Source: a virus. Taken from it: a stretch of DNA of 64,000 nucleotides. The position numbers and the translations under genes are program-made. Positions 2,120 through 41,572 of this stretch are shown here, one piece after another (within the stretch, counting starts at the first letter, position 1; every line of letters begins with the position of its first letter). Location of the stretch: positions 1-64,000 of IMG/VR virus record IMGVR_UViG_3300029908_000015; one strand, written 5' to 3'. The notes below the pieces were generated by a model. The model did no database searches. It saw only the letters and a program-made list of their open reading frames with translations, and had not been told where the DNA came from.

Positions 2120-3187
2120 TTAAATATTATACCCTGCTAAACGTTTAATTGCCGTGAGGGAATCTTCATCCTGCGGTACTACGGTTTTAACAGCTTTGTC
2201 ACCAGTAGATTCACTAATCATCTGTTTTCCAGTAGTAACCTGTTTCTTATTGGTTAATACCGCTGGCAAATATTTGTCGTATGCAGATCGTAATTGCGGA
2301 GTCTGCACAGTTTCTAATAATTGGCTCATTACTGCTTTCTTACTTCTATCTAATGGTGAAAGCAATTCCGAAAGTACGGTTGCCCGCGCCGCTCGGTTAT
2401 TTAGTTTAATTAAATTCTGCTCTCTCGACTCAGCTATCTTAGTTGCCTTTGCTAACTTAGTCGTGACTTCATCTAATTTATTCTTAATTTTACGAACTTC
2501 TTTATTTTCGTTTAAATATGTTCCTGTAAATTCAGTTGCAAAGGCTTCATAGATCTTACGGCCAAAATTATTCTGCCGTGCAATCTTTAGATCACCGTGT
2601 AACTGTGTTAGTTCATGATTTAAAGTTTCGGCAACAATTTTACTTACTGCCTTACTGCTTCTTGCAATGAACTTCTGTTTTAGTGCGGCTAACTGATTCT
2701 TTGCTTCAGAAATTAACTTGACTCTTGTTTCAGCCAAGGTCTTCTTATCTTCTGCAAATTCATTAATCTCTTCTGCTAGTGAACTAAAAACAAACTTTTC
2801 TAACTTTTTCTTATGAGCTTCTGTTAATTTACGCTCTTGCGCAAACTCTGCTAGCTCTTCAGCCAAGGCACGTGTTGCAAATGCATTGAACTTTTTAGCA
2901 GCGGATTTCATTTCATTAACTGTTTTGAGTTTTAGCTTCGATACCTGATTGCGCTCTTCTTTAACCTGGGATATTTCCTTTGATAAAGTTTCGGCGACCA
3001 TTTTGTCAAGTGTCTTGACCATAACTTTTTTATCATGCTCGTAACGCTCGGCGAATTCTTCACGGGTATTAGTCCGAATTTCGGACTTCATCTCCGTTAA
3101 CTTCGCCTCCCATGCAGCATTGATGGCAGTTCGAGTCTCTTCATTTATTACTCCACTCTTAAGGAGTGATTCGAGAGCATCCAACAT
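2120..3187 (-). CDS. 22: Prohead core scaffold, T4 gp22-like
   Basis: This 355-residue, highly charged, almost wholly helical protein has long Lys/Glu-rich coiled-coil stretches. Position directly upstream of gp23 and composition match T4 gp22, the scaffold that fills the prohead and is digested by the prohead protease. It begins MLDALESLLKSG and contains several (I/L)-x-E sites. The C-terminal 80 residues (LLSPLDRSKKAVMSQLL onward) look like the conserved gp22 tail. A strong ribosome-binding site (AGGAGAT) precedes the start, and an AATAAATA element lies about 20 nt upstream. The assignment relies on synteny plus composition, because scaffold sequences diverge quickly. Confidence 0.88.
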   Translation of the reverse strand: MLDALESLLKSGVINEETRTAINAAWEAKLTEMKSEIRTNTREEFAERYEHDKKVMVKTLDKMVAETLSKEISQVKEERNQVSKLKLKTVNEMKSAAKKFNAFATRALAEELAEFAQERKLTEAHKKKLEKFVFSSLAEEINEFAEDKKTLAETRVKLISEAKNQLAALKQKFIARSSKAVSKIVAETLNHELTQLHGDLKIARQNNFGRKIYEAFATEFTGTYLNENKEVRKIKNKLDEVTTKLAKATKIAESREQNLIKLNNRAARATVLSELLSPLDRSKKAVMSQLLETVQTPQLRSAYDKYLPAVLTNKKQVTTGKQMISESTGDKAVKTVVPQDEDSLTAIKRLAGYNI

Positions 3188-3208
3188 AATTTAATCTCCT
3201 ATTGCTTT

Positions 3209-3216
3209 TATTTATT
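3209..3216 (-). promoter_or_regulatory. Possible late promoter (AATAAATA) before gp22
   Basis: This is one base from the T4 late consensus TATAAATA, on the minus strand, 22 nt upstream of the gp22 start. Its position between a hairpin and a head gene supports use. Confidence 0.45.
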
Positions 3217-3218
3217 AC

Positions 3219-3246
3219 CGGCTTAAAAATATATGTTATTAAGCCG
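3219..3246 (-). terminator. Hairpin after the first leader-tagged gene
   Basis: Eight-base-pair stem (CGGCTTAA/TTAAGCCG) 14 nt beyond the stop of the gene at 3261. It has a T-run only on its plus-strand side, so termination on the minus strand is uncertain. Confidence 0.45.
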
Positions 3247-3260
3247 ATTTTTCGTGTAAT

Positions 3261-3575
3261 TTACTCGGTATCTTCATCCCCACCTAAGTCTTCTAACTCA
3301 GCGATTGTATCTTCCATTGTGCATCCAGCTTTTCCCATGTACTCATGCTCATTACTTAAAGCCATTTTAATATTTGCATACCAATATGATTTAGCACGGG
3401 AAACAATATGATCTCCCCCAGGAATTCGCCGTACTTGATTCAATGCTTGATCAATTCTCTCTACTAGTTCGGACATTTCTTCCCAGCATTCGGATAACTC
3501 TGATAATGTTTCTCCGCCGTCAAAAGATTCCTTAACCAACTTTTTATATTTTGTTATTTCCTCGATTAAATTCAT
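3261..3575 (-). CDS. Putative internal head protein with capsid-targeting leader
   Basis: I place the start at 3575, giving MNLIEEITKYKKLVKES, because this leader recurs in five neighbouring genes. A longer frame would add six residues without matching the family. The 104-residue product is acidic, ends GGDEDTE, and its body (a helical Ser/Glu-rich segment, then HIVSRAKSYWY) matches nothing I recognise. Its leader ends in V-K-E before Ser, close to the T4 prohead-protease pattern (I/L)-x-E. It is the last leader-tagged gene before the scaffold gene, so packaging inside the head is a reasonable inference. Enzymatic function is unknown. Confidence 0.75.
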   Translation of the reverse strand: MNLIEEITKYKKLVKESFDGGETLSELSECWEEMSELVERIDQALNQVRRIPGGDHIVSRAKSYWYANIKMALSNEHEYMGKAGCTMEDTIAELEDLGGDEDTE

Positions 3576-3577
3576 TA

Positions 3578-4069
3578 TTATCTCCTGTTGCATTCATCAA
3601 TCTTTAATTTGCCTTTCTTTGAAAACGGCCCCGGTGTTACTTTTGATTCGTCGATCAATTCCCAATTTTCCTCAAAATTTTGAACTTTGTCCCAATCTTT
3701 ATTTTTAACAGCATTGCGATATTCTATTACTTCTTTTTCTGATGGAACTCGAAACTTATCCCCAGAATGACTTGTTATAATTCTTTCGCCACCGTTACCT
3801 AAAGGCATTGATCCTGTAGGTACTGATTCTTTAATCGATCCCCATTTATTTTTCTGTTTTGCACGAATGGCAAATGTAAGTTGATGCTCTTTTTTCTTAA
3901 GAACTTCTGTCTTATTTGGATTTTTCTTGCATTTAGCTAATTCGGCCTTTAACTCAGAAAGAGTATAATTTTTCCATTTACCCTCATCTTTTTTCTTGGT
4001 GGCCATCTTCTCATTCCAAGACTCGTTTAAAACATTTTGATATTTTGTTATTTCTTCAAGTAAATCCAT
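3578..4069 (-). CDS. Putative internal head protein with capsid-targeting leader
   Basis: The 163-residue product opens MDLLEEITKYQNVLNES, with L-N-E before Ser as the predicted cut site. The body is very basic (Lys-rich from residue 18 to 85), contains a second possible site (I-K-E before Ser, about residue 80), and ends CNRR. Basic, cleaved, head-gene-linked proteins resemble T4 internal proteins IPI-IPIII in general character, but I see no sequence similarity in the body. The stop lies 2 nt before the next start, so the two genes are translated together. Confidence 0.75.
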   Translation of the reverse strand: MDLLEEITKYQNVLNESWNEKMATKKKDEGKWKNYTLSELKAELAKCKKNPNKTEVLKKKEHQLTFAIRAKQKNKWGSIKESVPTGSMPLGNGGERIITSHSGDKFRVPSEKEVIEYRNAVKNKDWDKVQNFEENWELIDESKVTPGPFSKKGKLKIDECNRR

Positions 4070-4085
4070 GTTGGCTCCTCAGTTC

Positions 4086-4646
4086 TTAATCATAATACGA
4101 TGGTGTATATTTACGTGTCTTCGGTTTTTTAACCTGTCTAACTCCGTGTTTAACTAACCAATCAGCAAATTCTTTAACATTAGTAAATCCAGTAGATTTT
4201 AAATTATCTTTTCCATTCATAAACCATGCTTCTGGATTATGAGAGGAAATATCTTGTACTACTAATCTAACTGGGCTAAACAAATAAAATTCTAATTCAT
4301 CTACATCTGCCGGGCCAACCTTACTAATCGTTAAATCTGATATAACTCGAAAGACTTGTTTTTCTTTCGGATCTGTAAAATCTTTTGGATATTTCATACG
4401 CGTTTCAAGCGACGATAATTCAGCCATTTCATAATCATATTTGTTATAATAATGATCAACAGTATTTTCATCTTGAGGACCATTAAGAAATTTAATTATA
4501 ATTTTTGCATCACGTAGTGGCAATCGAATACCATACTCTTTTCCAATGGAAATCAATTCTTCCGGAGTTTTTCCTGCTAATGGCCTAGGCACCGATGATT
4601 CCAATATAACTCGTTTATAATTTTGAATTTCTTCTATTAGATTCAT
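4086..4646 (-). CDS. Putative internal head protein with capsid-targeting leader
   Basis: The 186-residue product starts MNLIEEIQNYKRVILES, with I-L-E before Ser as the predicted prohead-protease site. After the leader it has a mixed alpha/beta body with no motif I recognise and a basic, Tyr-rich tail (KKPKTRKYTPSYYD). It sits between two genes with the same leader, in the run from the prohead protease to the scaffold. Packaging in the head is inferred. Function after injection is unknown. Confidence 0.75.
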   Translation of the reverse strand: MNLIEEIQNYKRVILESSVPRPLAGKTPEELISIGKEYGIRLPLRDAKIIIKFLNGPQDENTVDHYYNKYDYEMAELSSLETRMKYPKDFTDPKEKQVFRVISDLTISKVGPADVDELEFYLFSPVRLVVQDISSHNPEAWFMNGKDNLKSTGFTNVKEFADWLVKHGVRQVKKPKTRKYTPSYYD

Positions 4647-5802: not shown

Positions 5803-6453
5803 CTAATTTAGTTTCAATTCATTAATGAATCGAGTTAATTCTTCTTTAAGGTAGCGTTGAACTTTTGGGTTCGATTTAACTTCAGCCGCCATTTCAAAAA
5901 CATCATCACCATTTTTACGGAAGTTACGCAGGCCTTCATATACAGGGATGGGGAACGCATTCGGAGCCGATGGCTGGGCGACTACATCAACAGTAACAAT
6001 TTCAAAGTCGCTAACGTAACCACTACTCTCATTAACATTACCCGAACCGCGAGAACTAACCCCCAATTTACACCCACTCTCAAGAATAGTCTTAATAATA
6101 TTACCCATTGGGGTAGGAATAATCTTTAATTTACCGCAGCCATTTGCACCTTCCATCCACATCGAGGAAATAGAGTGACTAATACGATCTATATTAATAT
6201 TTAGACCAGTTGGATGGTCTCCTTCTCCGAAAATTGGAGCCCCCGATTCAATCAAGGTATTCATCGCCGTAACGGCTCTTTTAATTTCTGTTACCGGATA
6301 AATTCTCTGATTATAGTTTCTAACATCGCCTTGAATGAAGATTCCCTTCATATACAGATCTTTTTGCTTCTGCCCAGACGCATTAACTGATTCTGCCACT
6401 TCAGTTATCATTGTTGCGGGATTTTGATATTCAAACAACGGAATCTTATTCAT
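5803..6453 (-). CDS. 21: Prohead maturation protease, T4 gp21 family
   Basis: This 216-residue serine protease of the T4 gp21 type digests the scaffold, trims capsid proteins and removes leaders from packaged proteins during head maturation. Visible landmarks are GEGDHPTG (His region, about residue 77), DRISHSISSMW (second His, ~95), GVSSRGSG (nucleophilic Ser region, ~130) and VDVVAQPSAP near 150. Length is close to T4 gp21 (212). The start is preceded by GAGG and two tandem copies of TATAAATA. In this phage the enzyme has an unusually long list of candidate substrates, given the leaders seen on neighbouring and distant genes. Confidence 0.93.
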   Translation of the reverse strand: MNKIPLFEYQNPATMITEVAESVNASGQKQKDLYMKGIFIQGDVRNYNQRIYPVTEIKRAVTAMNTLIESGAPIFGEGDHPTGLNINIDRISHSISSMWMEGANGCGKLKIIPTPMGNIIKTILESGCKLGVSSRGSGNVNESSGYVSDFEIVTVDVVAQPSAPNAFPIPVYEGLRNFRKNGDDVFEMAAEVKSNPKVQRYLKEELTRFINELKLN

Positions 6454-7627: not shown

Positions 7628-8488
7628 TTACTTTTCTTTTATTTCTTTCCATTCATTAACTAACGCTTTTATTTTTTCTACATTTCCAAGAGCTCTAAAA
7701 TATCTGTTCGATAAATTACCATTAGATTTATAATTTTCTTGATTATCCCAAATACGACTTATAATCTTCTGGTTATTTTCTACGGTTACAAATGGGTGCC
7801 AAATATGAGATACAGAACTCGGTAATGTTTTATGTGGGCCGTAAAGTGTGTCCATTACCCGCATTGCGGTAACATCTTCCCCTCCCCAACCACGAAATCT
7901 TTCATCCCAGCCACCGGTAATTTTAAAAGCCTCCCTTGGCATAATTTGAAATAATGCACCATAACGATGCCCATGGACCGACCCAGACAACCCATTAAAA
8001 TCTTTAGTTATTAAAATTTCATCGGTTTCGGGCTCATGATATTTATTATTTGAATTTGTTTGTAACAATTTTTTTGATGCAGATTCATTCAATCGAAAAA
8101 ATTTTCTATATGGTATAAACCAGAGCGTATGTTTTTTCTTTCTTGCTTTTCTAATCTCCATAGCACATTTTAACACCGAATCGGTTGATATATATCCATC
8201 GGCGTCCGCAATAACAAAAATATCTCCCAATGCTCTTTTAGCAGCATAATTAACCGCACAGGCTTTTGAAAAGGGTTGGTTATTTATATTAACTTTTTCA
8301 TCGATTCCCATAATAATTTCTGCGCCCGGCAAATGAAATTTCCAATATTCATATAACCAGTTCCAATTTAGAGTTCGTTGATTAGCTGAAGGCGAAGAAT
8401 AAAATGGAACCAGAATGCTAATACCATTGCCTTTCAAGCAAAAAAATTTTGCGATAGTAAATTTAATTAGTTGGTAATTAATTTTCAT
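7628..8488 (-). CDS. GT-A glycosyltransferase (galactosyltransferase-like)
   Basis: The 286-residue protein has the GT-A layout: GISILVPFYSS near residue 22, the metal-binding ADADG at 94-98, and GGWDERFRGWGGED near 205, a motif of N-terminal galactosyltransferase-type enzymes. It should transfer a sugar from a nucleotide-sugar donor. The acceptor (DNA base, virion protein or host glycan) cannot be told. RBS AGGAAAAG precedes the start, which overlaps the stop of the upstream pyruvyl-transferase-like gene by 4 nt, so the two are coupled. Both lie inside the head-morphogenesis block, which is unusual. Confidence 0.82.
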   Translation of the reverse strand: MKINYQLIKFTIAKFFCLKGNGISILVPFYSSPSANQRTLNWNWLYEYWKFHLPGAEIIMGIDEKVNINNQPFSKACAVNYAAKRALGDIFVIADADGYISTDSVLKCAMEIRKARKKKHTLWFIPYRKFFRLNESASKKLLQTNSNNKYHEPETDEILITKDFNGLSGSVHGHRYGALFQIMPREAFKITGGWDERFRGWGGEDVTAMRVMDTLYGPHKTLPSSVSHIWHPFVTVENNQKIISRIWDNQENYKSNGNLSNRYFRALGNVEKIKALVNEWKEIKEK

Positions 8489-9249
8489 ATAACTTTTCCT
8501 AATTCTCGAAGTGCATCATAAATTGAAAATTTGACTTCTTCGACAAGAACTCTAGATGGTTCAACCATTTTTCCTAACTCAAATGGCGTTCTAATTGACG
8601 CGCTATAATCTCGAAATTTAAATAAGCCGCCTTCATTCGCCATTTTTTCGCAAAGTTCTACACGCCGTGGAATTCCGCCAAATGAATCAGCCACAATCAT
8701 TCCATGTAAAGAAGACGTAACTATTCTACGACTAGCACCGATTTCACTAATCACCTGTAACGGCGGATCTAAAGGATTAATTACCTTAATAGAAAATTTA
8801 TTTGGAATTAATTTTTTAAATCGACTAACTAATTCTGTATCTCGCCAATGAGGGACAATTCCCAAATCCCATTGTTTTTTAATTGGCTCAATTAATTCAT
8901 TTGCTAATATACCAGGATCGCCCAATGTAAAATTACCGCTAAACCCTCTAGCAGATAATGGGCCGCGCAAAGCTAAAATTTTTGCAGTTGAACCAAACGA
9001 GCCCAATCTCGAATTCTCAAATAATTTTCCCGACCCCACAATGTAACCATCCCAGTCAGGAGGAATATATTCTAAAATTGATCCGCAAACCGTAACCAAT
9101 GATCTCGAAATGGTATCTCTTTCCACTTGTTTAATATCGGCAAACCGCGAAAGAATCAACGGAGTTAACGCATCCCCAAAATTAGGCATTTTATTCCACC
9201 AAAACGCTTTAATTGAAGAGTTTGCTCTAAAAAATTTTGAAAGAATCAT
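8485..9249 (-). CDS. Polysaccharide pyruvyl transferase-family protein
   Basis: The 254-residue protein carries family landmarks in order: NFGDALTPLI near residue 23, a GSI strand at ~55, LALRGPLSARGF near 92, LGDPGIL near 110, and SSLHGMIVADSFGG near 180. In bacteria this family transfers pyruvate from phosphoenolpyruvate to sugars in surface polysaccharides, and some members act as glycosyltransferases. It is coupled to the following GT-A gene by a 4-nt overlap, suggesting that the two build one glycan. Length is shorter than typical (about 300). Confidence 0.78.
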   Translation of the reverse strand: MILSKFFRANSSIKAFWWNKMPNFGDALTPLILSRFADIKQVERDTISRSLVTVCGSILEYIPPDWDGYIVGSGKLFENSRLGSFGSTAKILALRGPLSARGFSGNFTLGDPGILANELIEPIKKQWDLGIVPHWRDTELVSRFKKLIPNKFSIKVINPLDPPLQVISEIGASRRIVTSSLHGMIVADSFGGIPRRVELCEKMANEGGLFKFRDYSASIRTPFELGKMVEPSRVLVEEVKFSIYDALRELGKVI

Positions 9250-9892: not shown

Positions 9893-12800
9893 TTATGCTC
9901 CGGGAGTTGCTGCGGCTGAAGCTTCGGCTGTACCGGCAGTGGGAACATTCCCTCCTCCACCCATAGCGCCGGCTTCTTCCGATCCTCCGGGCATTTCGCT
10001 ACTCTCTTCACCCATACCCATATCTTCTCCTCCACCAAAAGTTTCCATGTCGCCTTCTATACCGCCTGGAGTTATACCTATATTCCTGAAATCAGATGGT
10101 TCCGACGAATATTGCTCTGGTGAAATATTTTCTTCACGCCACATTTCCTGATTTTCTAATAACTCATCTGGTTTCAATCCTAAGAATCGAGTCATTAACC
10201 AGCGTTTTGAAAAATATGGATATGCTTCTAATTGAGTGAATGTGTTAATTTTAGCCGAATCCAATTCTGCTTGACGATAACTTGCAAAATTTTGAGGAGG
10301 AGTAAATTCTAATTGAAAAATACTCGAATCAATATTAATTCCACAAAATTTTAAATACGCTTTAAACTCTACATCCAATGGGCCGCAAATAAGTTTTTGT
10401 AATCTCTGGCAATATTGATTAAATCTAAATTCTTGAATTAATGCCGTTCCCACCCTACCATCGTTTAATGTTGCGGAACTTTCCTCTGGACCGGTTGGCA
10501 AATAACTACTAGGAATACGAAGGCCACGCATCATCTTATTGTTAAAATACAAAAGATCGTTTATTTCGTTTAAATTAGAATTTTTAGTAAAAATACCAGA
10601 AGCTAACGCAAACGTGTGATAATTATGATATTTTTCATCTTTATCAATAGTTAACGTGCCCACCTGTATTGGTTCGGTTAAAAATTCAATTTTAACAATT
10701 GCGTGATTATAAAATTTAACTTCTTTTTTAAATTGCCTCCAATTCGCATATCCGATACTCTTAACCGCAGAATTAATTTGAGTAGACGTTATACGATCAT
10801 TATTCCAATTGGCTGCGTTAATATCCTTATTAATATCAAGATAATGACCTAAAATTGTTGAGTTAGAATTGATATTATTAACGACATCGACTAGTCTAAG
10901 TTTATTATTTGCTCTTAATAATCCTTGAATATAGTCGAGTATATCTTTATCACATCTAATCTTTTGTGTGACGGAAACCTTCTTTCTTGAAGCTATATAG
11001 GCCGGATCATTTTTTCTCAATCTATGTGATTCGCCAATTCGAGCATTACGAACTAAAAATTCTGGACTTTCTTTGAACTTATTCCATCCATTCATTTTGG
11101 CTGAATACCATGCAGCATAACATTCACTATCGGTTTTTAATAATTTTAGAAATTCTTCCGAGGCATTATTAATATTTTTTCTAGAAATTTCTCCTCTCGC
11201 AGCAGCTTCGCCTGGTGTTAGACTTGAAAGATATTTTTTAAGTCCGATACTATGATTTTCATGAATTTTCAGCCGTTCTTCTTCCGATCGATTAGCACAT
11301 GTAATCGTTAATGTAGCATTTCGTCGATCCATTATTTCTTTATATGTGGCAGGATCGTTCTCTCTAACCCAATTCATTTTCTCTACGGCAGCGATACATC
11401 CTAAAACTTGCGCTTCTTTCGAAAAACCATGATCGGCATGATATATACGATGATCGTTCCAACTCATCTTTACTAAATTAGTTGGGTTATTATTATATCG
11501 ATTATGATCCTTGTGATGTATAACATCCTTTTTTTCATCCTTAAAGTCATCATTATAGACAAAATCTTCTAGCGGTAATGTTTGCCCAATTAATCTATGT
11601 ACATATTCCCATTTTTTATTATCATTTTGATAAACCTGAGTATATTGGTTTTTTGCATTTTTTGAAATCACTTTATTTTGCGTATTAAACGGAATAAATC
11701 GATCACCAATAACTAAACTATTCGCTTCGACAAATCCACGACCTAATATTGGAAATTTGTGGTCCAGCGTGCTAGTTACAGTTTTCCCATTATCAAGCGT
11801 AATTTTCATTACTTTAGCAGATTCCTGTGTAACACCCGCCCATGAAACTATACCGGGCACTACATGACCAGTCGTAGGATCACAACTATACACCCAATTT
11901 TCTTTTCCGGAATTAAATTCATCTGTTAATTCAGTCAATGATAATGTTCTACCATCAAGCAAGGGAACCATAGTAGACATTTCCAAACAACCGCCGGGCA
12001 AAATCTCAACAGAACTGCCTCGCCCTGCAGCGGTTTGTGGGAAAAAGAAATCTGCATTCGGAGGAAGACCTTGATAAGAACTATCCATGAAATTTTCGTT
12101 ACCGGCTCTTCCAGGAATTCTCCGTTGATGCATCTCATTCTTAACTTTTTCCATAAACTGCATAGCCATGTGGCTAGGCATATCACCAACATCGATTTTG
12201 AAAACTCTACGTTCAGGTGCTCGTTGAACACGATAAATCAAAATTGAATCTTCTAATAGTTCTTTTTGTTTAAAAACTTTGAAAATTAATTCAAGAATAC
12301 TATTACCAAACGGCCAATTAGGATCTAATCCCTCGGTTAATGATAAATGAAGAATATTAGTTGCGTCGATACAATTCTCGTTTTGCCCATGTACAAACCG
12401 GCTACTAGAACTATTGGGACTATTCGGCATATTATAACCAGAACCTGATGAAGAATATCCTGGCCCAGATGGGACAACATTATATAGATTATTCGAAGCT
12501 ACCTGTGTTATTGTTAAATTTTGAAAATTAGGATTAATATTTCTAATTATATATTGCTCTGGCTTTTTCCCGTCACTTTCATTAACAATAACCTTAATAA
12601 CCTGATCCATTTCAACATAAAATAATTTAAACGTTTCGGGATCCCGAATAAATACTTGGTCGCCGTATTTTAAAACATTTCGAAACAATCTAAATGCCCG
12701 TTTATTAAATTCATTAAGATAATACCAAGACTGAAGTTGTTTATCAATTAATTTAGATTCAGTTTCTGTTGGAGTATCTTTATATTTAATAGTAAAGCAC

Positions 12801-13060
12801 ATATGATTTTGCTCGTCTGCTTGCGTACTAAACTCAGCCAAAATATCTAGCGCTGAATTTACCTCACTATCGCAATCCATTCCTTCCCAGCTTTGGTATC
12901 GAGAAATGCGATTTGGGCAGCCTACGTAGGACTCAGGAATCATATTCGGATATGAATTTGTAGCGATTGCATCTTCGCCTGTATTAGACTTTCGGCGATG
13001 AGTCAACGGACTATCAATACCCGATTCATTTCGTGCTAATTTGAAATATTTTTTCCACAT
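9893..13060 (-). CDS. 20: Portal protein gp20 interrupted by an intein
   Basis: The open frame encodes 1,055 residues. Removing residues 358-827 leaves about 585, near the T4 gp20 portal (524). The N-extein has portal landmarks such as YLNEFNKRAFRLFRNVLKYG and APERRVFKIDVGDMPSHMAM. The C-extein resumes with SNLNEINDLLYFNNKMMRGL, the region after the conserved ILPGG. The portal is the dodecameric DNA gate at the head vertex and nucleates head assembly. The C-terminal 90 residues are Gly/Glu/Ala-rich. An RBS (AAGGAAAT) lies about 12 nt before the start. Splicing should be needed for a working portal, because the insertion splits the conserved core. Confidence 0.95.
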   Translation of the reverse strand: MWKKYFKLARNESGIDSPLTHRRKSNTGEDAIATNSYPNMIPESYVGCPNRISRYQSWEGMDCDSEVNSALDILAEFSTQADEQNHMCFTIKYKDTPTETESKLIDKQLQSWYYLNEFNKRAFRLFRNVLKYGDQVFIRDPETFKLFYVEMDQVIKVIVNESDGKKPEQYIIRNINPNFQNLTITQVASNNLYNVVPSGPGYSSSGSGYNMPNSPNSSSSRFVHGQNENCIDATNILHLSLTEGLDPNWPFGNSILELIFKVFKQKELLEDSILIYRVQRAPERRVFKIDVGDMPSHMAMQFMEKVKNEMHQRRIPGRAGNENFMDSSYQGLPPNADFFFPQTAAGRGSSVEILPGGCLEMSTMVPLLDGRTLSLTELTDEFNSGKENWVYSCDPTTGHVVPGIVSWAGVTQESAKVMKITLDNGKTVTSTLDHKFPILGRGFVEANSLVIGDRFIPFNTQNKVISKNAKNQYTQVYQNDNKKWEYVHRLIGQTLPLEDFVYNDDFKDEKKDVIHHKDHNRYNNNPTNLVKMSWNDHRIYHADHGFSKEAQVLGCIAAVEKMNWVRENDPATYKEIMDRRNATLTITCANRSEEERLKIHENHSIGLKKYLSSLTPGEAAARGEISRKNINNASEEFLKLLKTDSECYAAWYSAKMNGWNKFKESPEFLVRNARIGESHRLRKNDPAYIASRKKVSVTQKIRCDKDILDYIQGLLRANNKLRLVDVVNNINSNSTILGHYLDINKDINAANWNNDRITSTQINSAVKSIGYANWRQFKKEVKFYNHAIVKIEFLTEPIQVGTLTIDKDEKYHNYHTFALASGIFTKNSNLNEINDLLYFNNKMMRGLRIPSSYLPTGPEESSATLNDGRVGTALIQEFRFNQYCQRLQKLICGPLDVEFKAYLKFCGINIDSSIFQLEFTPPQNFASYRQAELDSAKINTFTQLEAYPYFSKRWLMTRFLGLKPDELLENQEMWREENISPEQYSSEPSDFRNIGITPGGIEGDMETFGGGEDMGMGEESSEMPGGSEEAGAMGGGGNVPTAGTAEASAAATPGA
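10580..11989 (-). other. Intein with HNH homing endonuclease in the portal gene
   Basis: The inserted 470 residues start at Cys358 (CLEMSTMVPLLDG) and end at Asn827 (FALASGIFTKN), followed by Ser as the +1 residue. Splicing motifs are visible: block A at the start, a block-B-like TSTLDHKFPILG at ~428-440, and block F/G at the end (KYHNYHTFALASG). The usual penultimate His is replaced by Lys. The middle contains DVIHHKDHNRYNNNPTNL (512-529), an HNH endonuclease signature, so the intein is probably mobile. The insertion lies directly after the conserved ILPGG of the portal. Confidence 0.92.
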
Positions 13061-37428: not shown

Positions 37429-38637
37429 TTATTCAAAAAAATCAAAAAAGGTATTAATTTTACGAGTCCCTTCTTCTATTGCTTTCCATATTGGTAACTT
37501 TCCCAAGAGATTTTCTAACTTTTTATCTACCACCGCGGCAATCATTGCATCATTGTCAAATGGTAGTTTAGTAAACCAATCCGGTAGATGGGATTCATCT
37601 GTTGGATAAGCAACCGAAGTCATATTCAGTTGATTCTCTTTTAAAGGGCAAACCACACACTTCTGCCCATCAACGATACGAGTATGAACATTATCGTTAT
37701 TCATTTTTCTTAATGAATTCCAATTAATTGCCGCTCTGACGTGTCCAGGAACTCGATTACCTTTTCCTTGTGCAATTTGGTCCGCATAAAATGTTAGCTT
37801 GTTGACACGCTTCGGTGTACCTTGCTCATGTAATGGCAATGCTTTAAACTTATCCTTGAATATATTAATTTTTGCTGTTAAATCATCAACTGTTTTACCT
37901 TGTAGTAAATCCATTAATATTTCACTTAAAAATTTCTGGCAAACTTCCGGGGTATCACTGCGACGCAAATCTAATCCCATTGCTTTTAATTTTAAATGAT
38001 CGTCACCATAAAACTTACCATCTTTAAAATAATTAAGAATTGCATATCGTTTTTTAGTAATATATAAACCACGATAACCTACTGATTCGCAAGATGATTT
38101 AATTAATTGACCAAATTTATCCGGACAATTATACGATCTCTTCATATAATCGGCGTAAGAATCGTTAACTTGCTCTCCAATCTTCAAATATAGCTGAACT
38201 GCAATATCTCGATTCCATTCAACTTGACCTTCATCTATCATATCTTTCATCACTGGCCAAGCCGAAAATTGAGTTGAATCTGTATCCCCATAATGAATTG
38301 CTCTTCCTAGATAGTTATATTCTCCAGTTATACATTCATTAACAAACGAACTCTGATGCCTTACAATTCCCCTACCGGTTAAAGTAACCGATTGCCCTAC
38401 ACGTTTGTCAAAAAAACGAGAACTTGGTTGGAGCAGCGTTCCATATGTCGCATTGAGTAGGAGTTTTTTTGCGTGCTGCAATCCATCATAATATTCTACC
38501 TGTTTTTTAATTTCCGATATGTTTTTAGAAAAAATTTTTCCATTTCGGATTTCAAGATTATTATTTGTTATAAATTGTTTAATATCCGAGATATTTCCAT
38601 TAACAAATAACTCCCGAAGTTTTTTTACTTCCACCAT
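37429..38637 (-). CDS. 43B: DNA polymerase B, C-terminal part (gp43B)
   Basis: The 402-residue product carries polymerase motif B (KKLLLNATYGTLL, 58-70) and motif C (IHYGDTDS, 114-121) plus the thumb, matching the end of T4 gp43. Motif A and the exonuclease are in the separate frame at 39917. It starts at an ATG with AGGA 7 nt upstream that overlaps the stop of the HNH gene, so it can be made as a separate subunit. The TAA just before the ATG closes the frame upstream. It may assemble with gp43A, as in phages with split gene 43. Confidence 0.9.
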   Translation of the reverse strand: MVEVKKLRELFVNGNISDIKQFITNNNLEIRNGKIFSKNISEIKKQVEYYDGLQHAKKLLLNATYGTLLQPSSRFFDKRVGQSVTLTGRGIVRHQSSFVNECITGEYNYLGRAIHYGDTDSTQFSAWPVMKDMIDEGQVEWNRDIAVQLYLKIGEQVNDSYADYMKRSYNCPDKFGQLIKSSCESVGYRGLYITKKRYAILNYFKDGKFYGDDHLKLKAMGLDLRRSDTPEVCQKFLSEILMDLLQGKTVDDLTAKINIFKDKFKALPLHEQGTPKRVNKLTFYADQIAQGKGNRVPGHVRAAINWNSLRKMNNDNVHTRIVDGQKCVVCPLKENQLNMTSVAYPTDESHLPDWFTKLPFDNDAMIAAVVDKKLENLLGKLPIWKAIEEGTRKINTFFDFFE

Positions 38638-39818
38638 ATATGATCCTTATTATAATTATACTCAGATAATGGCATCATTACAACACCTATTTCCTTTAAT
38701 GTTTTACCACCATATATTTCCGAAAACCTAATTCGTTCAGCAAATTTCCTTTTAGTGGTGCCGGGAATAACAAAATTTAGTATTGATAAATCCCTGGGAC
38801 TATGATTTTGCAAGGCACACCGTGATTTCATATACTTTAAAAAATCACCAAGTAAAAAATAATAATTTTCAAAATTAGCAACAATTACTTTTTCCAATGA
38901 TGTGCCCGCTACTCGATAATATGTATTTGAAAAATCTTTCTTCCCGATTAATTTAAATTTTTTATCACGAATATCTAATACTCTTTTATTATTTGGATTA
39001 TTCGCAGTTGCAAACCCTTTATTTTTAAAAATTCTTCCTTCGATAAATCCTTCAGGACGTGGCGCATTTTCATTAATTCTTAAAGTTTCCCCGGTAGTAT
39101 TATTTGACACCCATCTTGATTCTGTTATATATGAATAATCGGTGTGTTTTAACCAATCGGGGTATCCCTTAACAAACCCAGGTAAAATTTCATGCATTTG
39201 TGCTACTTCTCTCGTTTTAGGATTATACTGCCATATTTTACCAGTAAAATTCCGGCTGCATAAATCCTTTGACTCTTGGGTACGCACTCTACCTGTTTGA
39301 AAAGGCTCCCACTCATCTGATTGAGATCCAATCGACATACGTAATAACTCTTTGGTTATTTTATGACGATAAATATTCGTATCCGCAAATAATTTCGACA
39401 TATAATCACGCTGTTCTTGTGTTCGCACTTTCCCGGTATTATTTTCAGATATTAGTTTTGCAAATTCTATACGAACGGCCTGATATAACCGGCAGTTAGT
39501 AATTCCTCTAGATTTTGAGACACGGCGCATCTGATTAAATGAGTAAATACAACTGCGATCACGAATTGATTTAAATAATAGATAATGTAGAAGATAATGA
39601 GCTTTAGGTTCAACAACGATAATATTCCAGGATTCATGCTTATATTCAGGAAATATCGCCACCGGCAAAATATGATGTTTCTCTACTGAACCCAAACCCG
39701 ATTTGACTAAATCCTGCGGTAAAAATTTTAGCAATTTAAAATATCGAATAAATTGTCTTTCGTTTTTAACTTTTCCGGTATTGCGAAACATATTTTCCAT
39801 GTAAAATAAATCGAACAT
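38625..39818 (-). CDS. HNH homing endonuclease between polymerase halves
   Basis: The 397-residue protein has VEKHHILPVAIFPEYKHESW at ~45-64, a classical HNH start, with NIIVVEPKAHYLLHYLLF after it. The C-terminal two thirds contain repeated phage-endonuclease elements (TGKIWQYNPKTREV, NENAPRPEGFIEGR, VIPGTTK) that probably bind DNA. It sits exactly between the two polymerase frames: 98 nt after gp43A's stop and overlapping the start of gp43B by 13 nt. RBS AGGGAT. It probably spreads the polymerase split. Confidence 0.87.
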   Translation of the reverse strand: MFDLFYMENMFRNTGKVKNERQFIRYFKLLKFLPQDLVKSGLGSVEKHHILPVAIFPEYKHESWNIIVVEPKAHYLLHYLLFKSIRDRSCIYSFNQMRRVSKSRGITNCRLYQAVRIEFAKLISENNTGKVRTQEQRDYMSKLFADTNIYRHKITKELLRMSIGSQSDEWEPFQTGRVRTQESKDLCSRNFTGKIWQYNPKTREVAQMHEILPGFVKGYPDWLKHTDYSYITESRWVSNNTTGETLRINENAPRPEGFIEGRIFKNKGFATANNPNNKRVLDIRDKKFKLIGKKDFSNTYYRVAGTSLEKVIVANFENYYFLLGDFLKYMKSRCALQNHSPRDLSILNFVIPGTTKRKFAERIRFSEIYGGKTLKEIGVVMMPLSEYNYNKDHIWWK

Positions 39819-39916
39819 TTAATAATCCCTATATAATGTTTTTATCATAGTGAACTACCGCGATTCAATGCGTTCTAACGCACGTGAAGTACACACGGGC
39901 TTGACTCGTAAAGCCA

Positions 39917-41572
39917 CTAAGAGGAAAGAGCATCAATTAAATTATCTGGTATCGTTATACCAAATGATAAATCTACAAATTCTTCTTTTTTTGCTTGTAG
40001 TTCTTTTCTTTCTGCATACCATTTAGCTAATAATCCAGGAATAATCGCTTCTTGATCATAACTAAAAATTGTTCCGTTACCACTTAGCATCCATTTCTGA
40101 TCGCTATAAAAAATGATATCATAAATCTGAGAAGCTGAAAGAGTATCACTTGTACCTGTTGATTCCCAATCAATAATAATATCTACGCCAGGTTTTCGAT
40201 CAATAACCGCCTGATATTCTAGAGTTGAAAAAACACCCTCCCACGCATGAGAATAAGTCATGCCTTTTTGTGACATTTTTTCAGCAACAAATGCCTCTGT
40301 AAGTGTGGGGCGCAACTGTCCAATAATAGTTTCTATTCCCATGTTTAATGCACGAATTGTACTAGGATATAGTGAATTAATATCAATTACACCTAGCCAT
40401 TCGTGAATTCCTACTTTTGGATCGGCTACATATGCGCCTACTGCGGCTGGCTCGTCATCGTCTTTCTGAGAACTATATTTTGGTTTATTTGGAACAATCA
40501 TACCCAAATCATGGGCTCTATTAATAATAGCCTGGTCTGTTTTGGCTACGGTTCCCATACAAGTAGGTAAAAGAGTGGTTGTATCATGGGCGACAACATT
40601 AATAAGTTCAATAAACTTTAATTTATTGTCTAACTGCTCCAATAGATTAACATCTTGCCTATTATATCTAATAAATAATTCAAAATCATTATTATATAAA
40701 TCATCTAATGAACCTTTATATTCAGTCTTACTACTTCCTAATTCATATTCAGCAATAGAATTTAATGAATATGAATGACGTTCTTCATATGTGAATTTTC
40801 GGTATAAATCCATCATATCGATATGAATCTTGCCAACTAATTCATACGTCTTAAATTCTTTACCATATTTTTCAACTACTTTAGCCTTTGGTTTTTCATT
40901 CCAGGATAATTCACATAATCTACGAGTATCATCTTTACTCATCACTCGTTGGATTCGATTAACAAGATATGGAATATCGAATCCTTCGCTATTCCATCCT
41001 GATATAACATCGCTGTCTTCTAATATATCGAGAGCGGCATTAAGCATATCAACTTCATTATCGAACACATATGTGTTCTCGAATTTATTTGCTATACTCT
41101 GCCCCTCGTCGAAAGTAATAGTTTTAGGTGGAATTGCTACAGTAATTAGTTTATTACACCAAACTAGATCAATTGTAATTGCGGTTATTTTATTAAAGGG
41201 GTCCTCGATGGGCGAGTATCCCTTATCCTTATCGAAATCAACTTCGATATCGATAAGAGCAACATGAAGATCAGGAGCGGGCTTACCTTTATAATTTTCC
41301 GATAAACATTTAAAAGTAAGATTTAAATCTGACTCCCAAATCTTTTTATCTGTACCTTTAAGGATCGCTAGTTCTTTGTAAAATTCACTAGAAGTTTTAG
41401 GGGTAATTTTTGTTAGAGGCGTATTATAAATTGATTTATAAGACCCATTCGGATCATCGATATAGAAACTATAATCGACAGGATAATTATTGAACACTCT
41501 CTTGCCATTGACTCGTTCGATAACTTCAATACGATCATTCTTACGATCTATTCTAGCTGTAATATATGACAT
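39917..41572 (-). CDS. 43A: DNA polymerase B, N-terminal part (gp43A)
   Basis: The 551-residue product has the 3'-5' exonuclease motifs (ALIDIEVDFD ~105, SGWNSEGFDIPYL ~190, YNRQDVNLLEQL ~300) and polymerase motif A (GVIDINSLYPSTI ~400). It stops after IPDNLIDALSS, just past the fingers region WYAERKELQ, and motifs B and C lie in the frame at 37429. A family B polymerase is thus encoded in two pieces of about 950 residues in total (T4 gp43 is 898). The early promoter's -10 lies 6 nt before its ATG. Confidence 0.92.
   Translation of the reverse strand: MSYITARIDRKNDRIEVIERVNGKRVFNNYPVDYSFYIDDPNGSYKSIYNTPLTKITPKTSSEFYKELAILKGTDKKIWESDLNLTFKCLSENYKGKPAPDLHVALIDIEVDFDKDKGYSPIEDPFNKITAITIDLVWCNKLITVAIPPKTITFDEGQSIANKFENTYVFDNEVDMLNAALDILEDSDVISGWNSEGFDIPYLVNRIQRVMSKDDTRRLCELSWNEKPKAKVVEKYGKEFKTYELVGKIHIDMMDLYRKFTYEERHSYSLNSIAEYELGSSKTEYKGSLDDLYNNDFELFIRYNRQDVNLLEQLDNKLKFIELINVVAHDTTTLLPTCMGTVAKTDQAIINRAHDLGMIVPNKPKYSSQKDDDEPAAVGAYVADPKVGIHEWLGVIDINSLYPSTIRALNMGIETIIGQLRPTLTEAFVAEKMSQKGMTYSHAWEGVFSTLEYQAVIDRKPGVDIIIDWESTGTSDTLSASQIYDIIFYSDQKWMLSGNGTIFSYDQEAIIPGLLAKWYAERKELQAKKEEFVDLSFGITIPDNLIDALSS

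Follow-up and report, generated by a model that had tools for sequence, protein, structure and literature searches.

Within the 64,000-nucleotide stretch of DNA analysed here (the window; positions 1 to 64,000 of IMG/VR record IMGVR_UViG_3300029908_000015, which is 81,184 bases long), a class 1 intein with an HNH endonuclease domain interrupts the portal gene of a phage of the T4 type; the portal is the ring by which DNA passes into the phage head. The element lies at positions 10580..11989 on the minus strand and genuinely belongs to a family of portal inteins that is widespread and little described. It is an intein of an already known kind, and what is unusual is that the portal is a hotspot for inteins. 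From its sequence, it is very probably a mobile element that would splice itself out to leave a normal portal protein and would home by means of its HNH endonuclease.

The portal protein (gp20) gene spans 9893..13060 (minus strand) and encodes a 1055-aa precursor containing the intein (PF07230 E-value 2.8e-84, PHROG 213 E-value 1.6e-87). The PF07230 (Portal_T4) match covers both exteins and identifies the host as a T4-type portal protein. The N-extein (11990..13060, minus strand; portal residues 1-357) ends in ILPGG, matches Portal_T4 over residues 53-357 and aligns with positions 7-328 of the portal HMM. The C-extein (9893..10579, minus strand; precursor residues 828-1055 plus the stop) covers profile positions 329-529. 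Other head genes are found in the neighbourhood, with a prohead protease (PF03420) at 5803-6453 and the major capsid protein Gp23 (PF07068) at 924-2108. Between the portal and protease genes, at 7628-9249, are a polysaccharide pyruvyl transferase-like gene and a family 2 glycosyltransferase gene, and a similar-looking pair was seen at 2788-4436 of locus L083, immediately downstream of its portal gene.

Translation of 10580..11989 gave exactly 470 residues, from Cys1 to Lys469-Asn470, in frame within the 1055-aa ORF as precursor residues 358-827, flanked by ILPGG before Cys1 and SNLNEI after Asn470. The exact ends were taken from the empty-site homologue L083, which reads continuously as LPGG/QNL (the slash marks the junction) and lacks exactly the intein segment, with exteins 73% and 66.5% identical to those of the window; the portal of Atu_ph07 also lacks the intein precisely. 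The first-pass annotation had placed a 470-residue HNH intein in the portal at these positions, with Cys after ILPGG and Asn before Ser, and this was correct to the base by profile matches, translation and the empty site. The intein scored 30.1 bits against TIGR01445 (intein_Nterm), above the cut-off of 24.5, and 33.7 bits (E-value 3.7e-8) against PF14890 (Intein_splicing), slightly under the cut-off of 35.8. An AlphaFold2 model with 47 family members as input had a mean pLDDT of 88.6, and its predicted HINT fold gave 32 PDB matches at E-values up to 0.001, nearly all of them inteins, with those of RecA, DnaB and DnaE at the top. PF14890 had no match elsewhere in the 81-kb record, and the family profile detected no second intein in the window.

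The N-terminal splicing segment (about residues 1-102; 11684..11989, minus strand) starts CLEMSTMVPLLDGR, matches TIGR01445 over residues 1-79 and was modelled with pLDDT mostly 92-98. It includes the block B motif T74-L-D-H77 (TxxH; 11759..11770, minus strand). The C-terminal splicing segment (about residues 426-470; 10580..10714, minus strand; pLDDT mostly 92-97) matched the family C-segment profile with a domain E-value of 7.6e-28, for a profile built with the window copy included. Within it lies the block F His458 (10616..10618, minus strand), the proposed helper of Asn cyclisation, and it is followed by Ser +1 (10577..10579, minus strand), the C-extein nucleophile. Cys1, Thr74, His77, His458, Gly465 and Asn470 were without variation in the 47 family members. 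Cys1, the block B TxxH, Asn470 and Ser +1 are features of a class 1 intein. The penultimate His that is usual, not universal, in that class is absent, and Lys469 (10583..10585, minus strand) is found instead. Class 3 was excluded for this element, since Cys1 is present and position 4 of block F is not Cys.

The endonuclease region (about residues 103-425; 10715..11683, minus strand) was recognised by PHROG HNH, and the predicted model is mostly helical beyond the HNH motif. The motif itself occupies residues 157-184 (IHHKDHNRYNNNPTNL...DH..YH; 11438..11521, minus strand; PHROG HNH E-value 3.4e-9) and retains H158, H159, N167, N171 and H180/H184 in the window copy. H158, H159 and H184 were present in 43 of the 47 relatives, and the remainder were gaps. 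Pfam HNH_3 matched at an E-value of 0.0019, with a score well below the family cut-off. In the nearest relative, L021 (N-extein 81% and C-extein 78% identical to the window), the endonuclease region is partly deleted, and L021, L070, L073 and L080 all carry HNH-deleted inteins with both splicing ends kept.

Seven relatives were returned by a first scan of IMG/VR, each with portal extein sequence adjoining the intein. A profile scan then gave 93 relatives (80 kept) and a wider profile scan 520 (80 kept); every one of the 79 ORFs read from this last set was a T4-type portal. An unusual single case was rejected on these numbers. The annotation had also held that a portal is a less common intein host; this found no support in the 79 viral ORFs, nor in the six mycobacteriophages with reported portal inteins (PMC5050341). 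Cluster C1 mycobacteriophages were the only source of portal inteins in the open-access literature searched (PMC5050341), where no description of inteins in T4-type gp20 was found; that literature leaves subscription journals largely outside and a prior report possible. In one relative (L018/L139) the portal frame ends inside the intein, giving a 524-aa ORF that is either an assembly error or a broken copy. Genes resembling free-standing homing endonucleases, judged by eye, lie directly upstream of intein-bearing portals at L005 1758-2921 and L004 36-644.

When insertion sites were mapped onto T4 gp20, the four commonest were between A316 and S317 (site d), between M328 and S329 (site b), near R338/R339 (site c), and between A353 and D354 (site a, occupied in the window). 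All four fall within the clip domain (279-358), to which the packaging ATPase attaches. Site a is in the channel loop (350-359), where the channel narrows to 28 A and is thought to touch DNA, and the T319A change in SPP1, equivalent to gp20 T349, impairs packaging (PMC4493910). Inteins occurred at no fewer than nine places in gp20, an approximate count because insertions slightly offset from sites a-d were grouped with them. The further positions were after LPGGDNLG (L116 group), before CKYGD (L042), after YLPYG(S) (L036, L050, L090), after ALxxY (L022, L050), and before TLLEDAM and STLSQQS (L090). Three inteins per gene were carried by L077, L050 and L090 among others, those of L077 inside about 40 extein residues. 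Two were carried by L022, L024, L034, L036, L042, L071, L076, L104, L116, L132, L149 and L169, and the extra intein of L036 has a LAGLIDADG domain. Given the multiple sites, the multi-intein genes and this LAGLIDADG intein, the portal has been invaded more than once. Portal inteins of L042 and L079 have an apparent Pro start, a block-F Cys (VYCM) and the end VSN/C, and are possibly class 3.

Four family members from sites a, b and d were used as queries against 50,697 phage records, in which no portal insertion at those sites was found. The only portal match, LR756508, is an unannotated metagenomic 484-kb phage whose gp20 has three inteins at positions other than these; the other matches fell in genes for a DNA polymerase and a ribonucleotide reductase, in one annotated as dCTP deaminase, and in an SP-15 gene that has a Walker A-like sequence. 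When bacterial and archaeal genomes were searched with the family profile, it found mainly GyrB and GyrA inteins, along with a few portal genes whose contigs are filed as bacterial. Across environmental phages of the T4 type, the family has invaded this one gene, the portal, again and again.

Among 118 dereplicated portal inteins at sites a-d, the penultimate residue was Lys in 84, Cys in 10 and His in 2, whereas the gyrase inteins found by the same profile had His in 75 of 75 (Fisher p = 5e-52, a value that ignores relatedness). The portal and gyrase inteins were placed apart in the tree (SH-aLRT 96 each), and the tree requires only two changes between a His and a non-His penultimate residue. 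The Lys of the window is therefore ordinary for the portal family, and the block-F His was kept in 116 of the 118. Inteins without a penultimate His are known to splice; some mycobacteriophage inteins have Gly, Lys or Ser at this position, and the block-F His is able to take over its role (Kelley et al. 2016, PMC5050341). The annotation was right that the penultimate residue is Lys, and its suggestion that Lys may slow or condition splicing was not supported: the residue is family-wide, the block-F His is retained, and in the sole tested phage case with a non-His residue, the mycobacteriophage RDF intein with a penultimate Gly, mutation to His slowed splicing (PMC5050341). We thus read the Lys as no sign of a weakened intein. 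The window copy is best seen as a typical and apparently functional intein from a portal-targeting family in which Lys is the normal penultimate residue.

Median dN/dS among pairs of relatives (Nei-Gojobori) was 0.07 for the splicing segments, 0.14 for the exteins and 0.24 for the endonuclease region; these values are rough because dS is high in many pairs. The splicing segments are on this measure under strong purifying selection. Empty portal alleles in the clade of the window include L083 and L253. Intein frequency was sampled by scanning with the N-terminal part of the portal only, because a full-length scan ranked intein-free genes first. Two of 80 portals so sampled carried an intein and 78 had no recognised intein, an approximate count because 3 of the 80 were incomplete; intein-free alleles predominate in this clade. 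The +1 residue at site a was Ser in 61 of 62 occupied genes, compared with Gln in 42, Thr in 15, Ser in 14 and others in the 80 empty genes, so the nucleophile either arrives with the intein or is selected by it. Some inteins were much closer to each other than were their portals (L155 versus L134, L142 and L152 by dN; L150 and L156 by dS), and this incongruence indicates horizontal transfer.

Under the reading we favour, the precursor would remove residues 358-827 by itself and join LPGG to SNLNEI, yielding a normal 585-aa portal subunit. The steps would be an acyl shift at Cys1, transfer to Ser +1, cyclisation of Asn470 helped by His458 in place of the penultimate His, and formation of a normal peptide bond between the exteins. 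Because the site is in the channel loop, subunits that still carry the intein should be unable to form a functional DNA channel, and splicing would precede packaging. During co-infection the HNH domain would cut intein-free portal alleles, with the break repaired from the intein copy. It is unlikely, though the most credible of the alternatives, that splicing is intact and the endonuclease no longer active, the resident intein being past its homing phase. The faster evolution of the endonuclease region and its deletion in several relatives, the nearest included, fit such a history; the window copy nevertheless keeps its HNH motif positions, and the region is still under purifying selection across the family.

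Conditional splicing of the portal intein is possible, and no finding here points toward it. An intein in which Lys469 makes splicing slow or signal-dependent, timing portal maturation to head assembly, would suit a site inside a functional channel loop and a Lys where most inteins have His, and in one phage intein the amount of precursor does change with non-His residues (PMC5050341). We nevertheless regard it as very improbable: Lys is the norm in a wide range of unrelated portals and sites, the block-F His has been retained, the non-His form of the tested phage intein was faster than its His mutant (PMC5050341), and most portal relatives have no intein, so timing does not depend on it. Only slightly less improbable is a broader proposal, that the T4-type portal is a long-standing intein niche in which a His-less family spread over the clip and channel sites and was retained because a splicing step gates portal assembly or DNA packaging, and not through selfish homing alone. 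The missing penultimate His and the stop within the intein of L018/L139 could instead mark a HINT domain that has degenerated or only cleaves and has lost the ability to ligate the portal. T4-type phages cannot do without their portal, and Cys1, TxxH, the block-F His, Asn470 and Ser +1 are conserved, with strong purifying selection on the splicing segments. A splicing-dead or cleavage-only domain is the least credible alternative, and it was rejected on the invariant catalytic residues, the Ser +1 pattern and dN/dS.

Intein surveys emphasise replication enzymes and terminases; the recurrent target here is a structural ring protein whose gene can hold as many as three inteins, in phages from the environment that are missed by culture collections. 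A portal family with Lys as its norm, beside gyrase relatives with invariant His, makes a natural test set for the last splicing step without His. Before gp20 serves as a marker gene in T4-type viromes, any portal ORF of roughly 1000 aa or longer should be screened for inteins. Elsewhere in the window, DNA polymerase B is split (37429-41572, minus strand), with the exonuclease together with the first part of the polymerase at 39917-41572, the last part at 37429-38637 and a homing-endonuclease gene (PHROG 655, E-value 7e-22) between them at 38625-39818. No Rfam intron model matched at the split gene, and no RNA families or tRNAs were found within the window.

Among known systems, the mycobacteriophage class 1 inteins, including that of the cluster C1 portal, are likewise phage inteins in packaging genes, and in some the penultimate His is replaced with the block-F His as proposed substitute (PMC5050341). 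The window intein differs from them in its T4-type gp20 host and in having Lys as the consensus, and tblastn of the window intein against the 50,697 phage records returned no Mycobacterium phage at E-values up to 0.01. The GyrB and GyrA inteins of Patescibacteria, DPANN archaea and Omnitrophota share the splicing domain of the portal inteins, and many are similar in the HNH region over about residues 1-187, but they keep the penultimate His and form their own side of the tree. They are frequent in these genomes, some of which have both, and sit at fixed sites (loci L175-L251; SAGG/C..HN/S in GyrB, QGNFG/C..HN/S in GyrA). The RtcB-type intein model NF052663 (NCBIfam) aligns with the whole window intein (E-value 7.6e-26); its host is an RtcB-family protein, and the window score is far below the model cut-off, as expected for a different host. 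TerL inteins, known from crAss-like phages (PMC7886860), Rak2 and K64-1 (PMC5259590) and Campylobacter phage IBB_35 (PMC3322345), resemble the window intein in occupying DNA-packaging proteins of large phages, but their host is the terminase, and those of Rak2 and K64-1 carry LAGLIDADG rather than HNH domains (PMC5259590).
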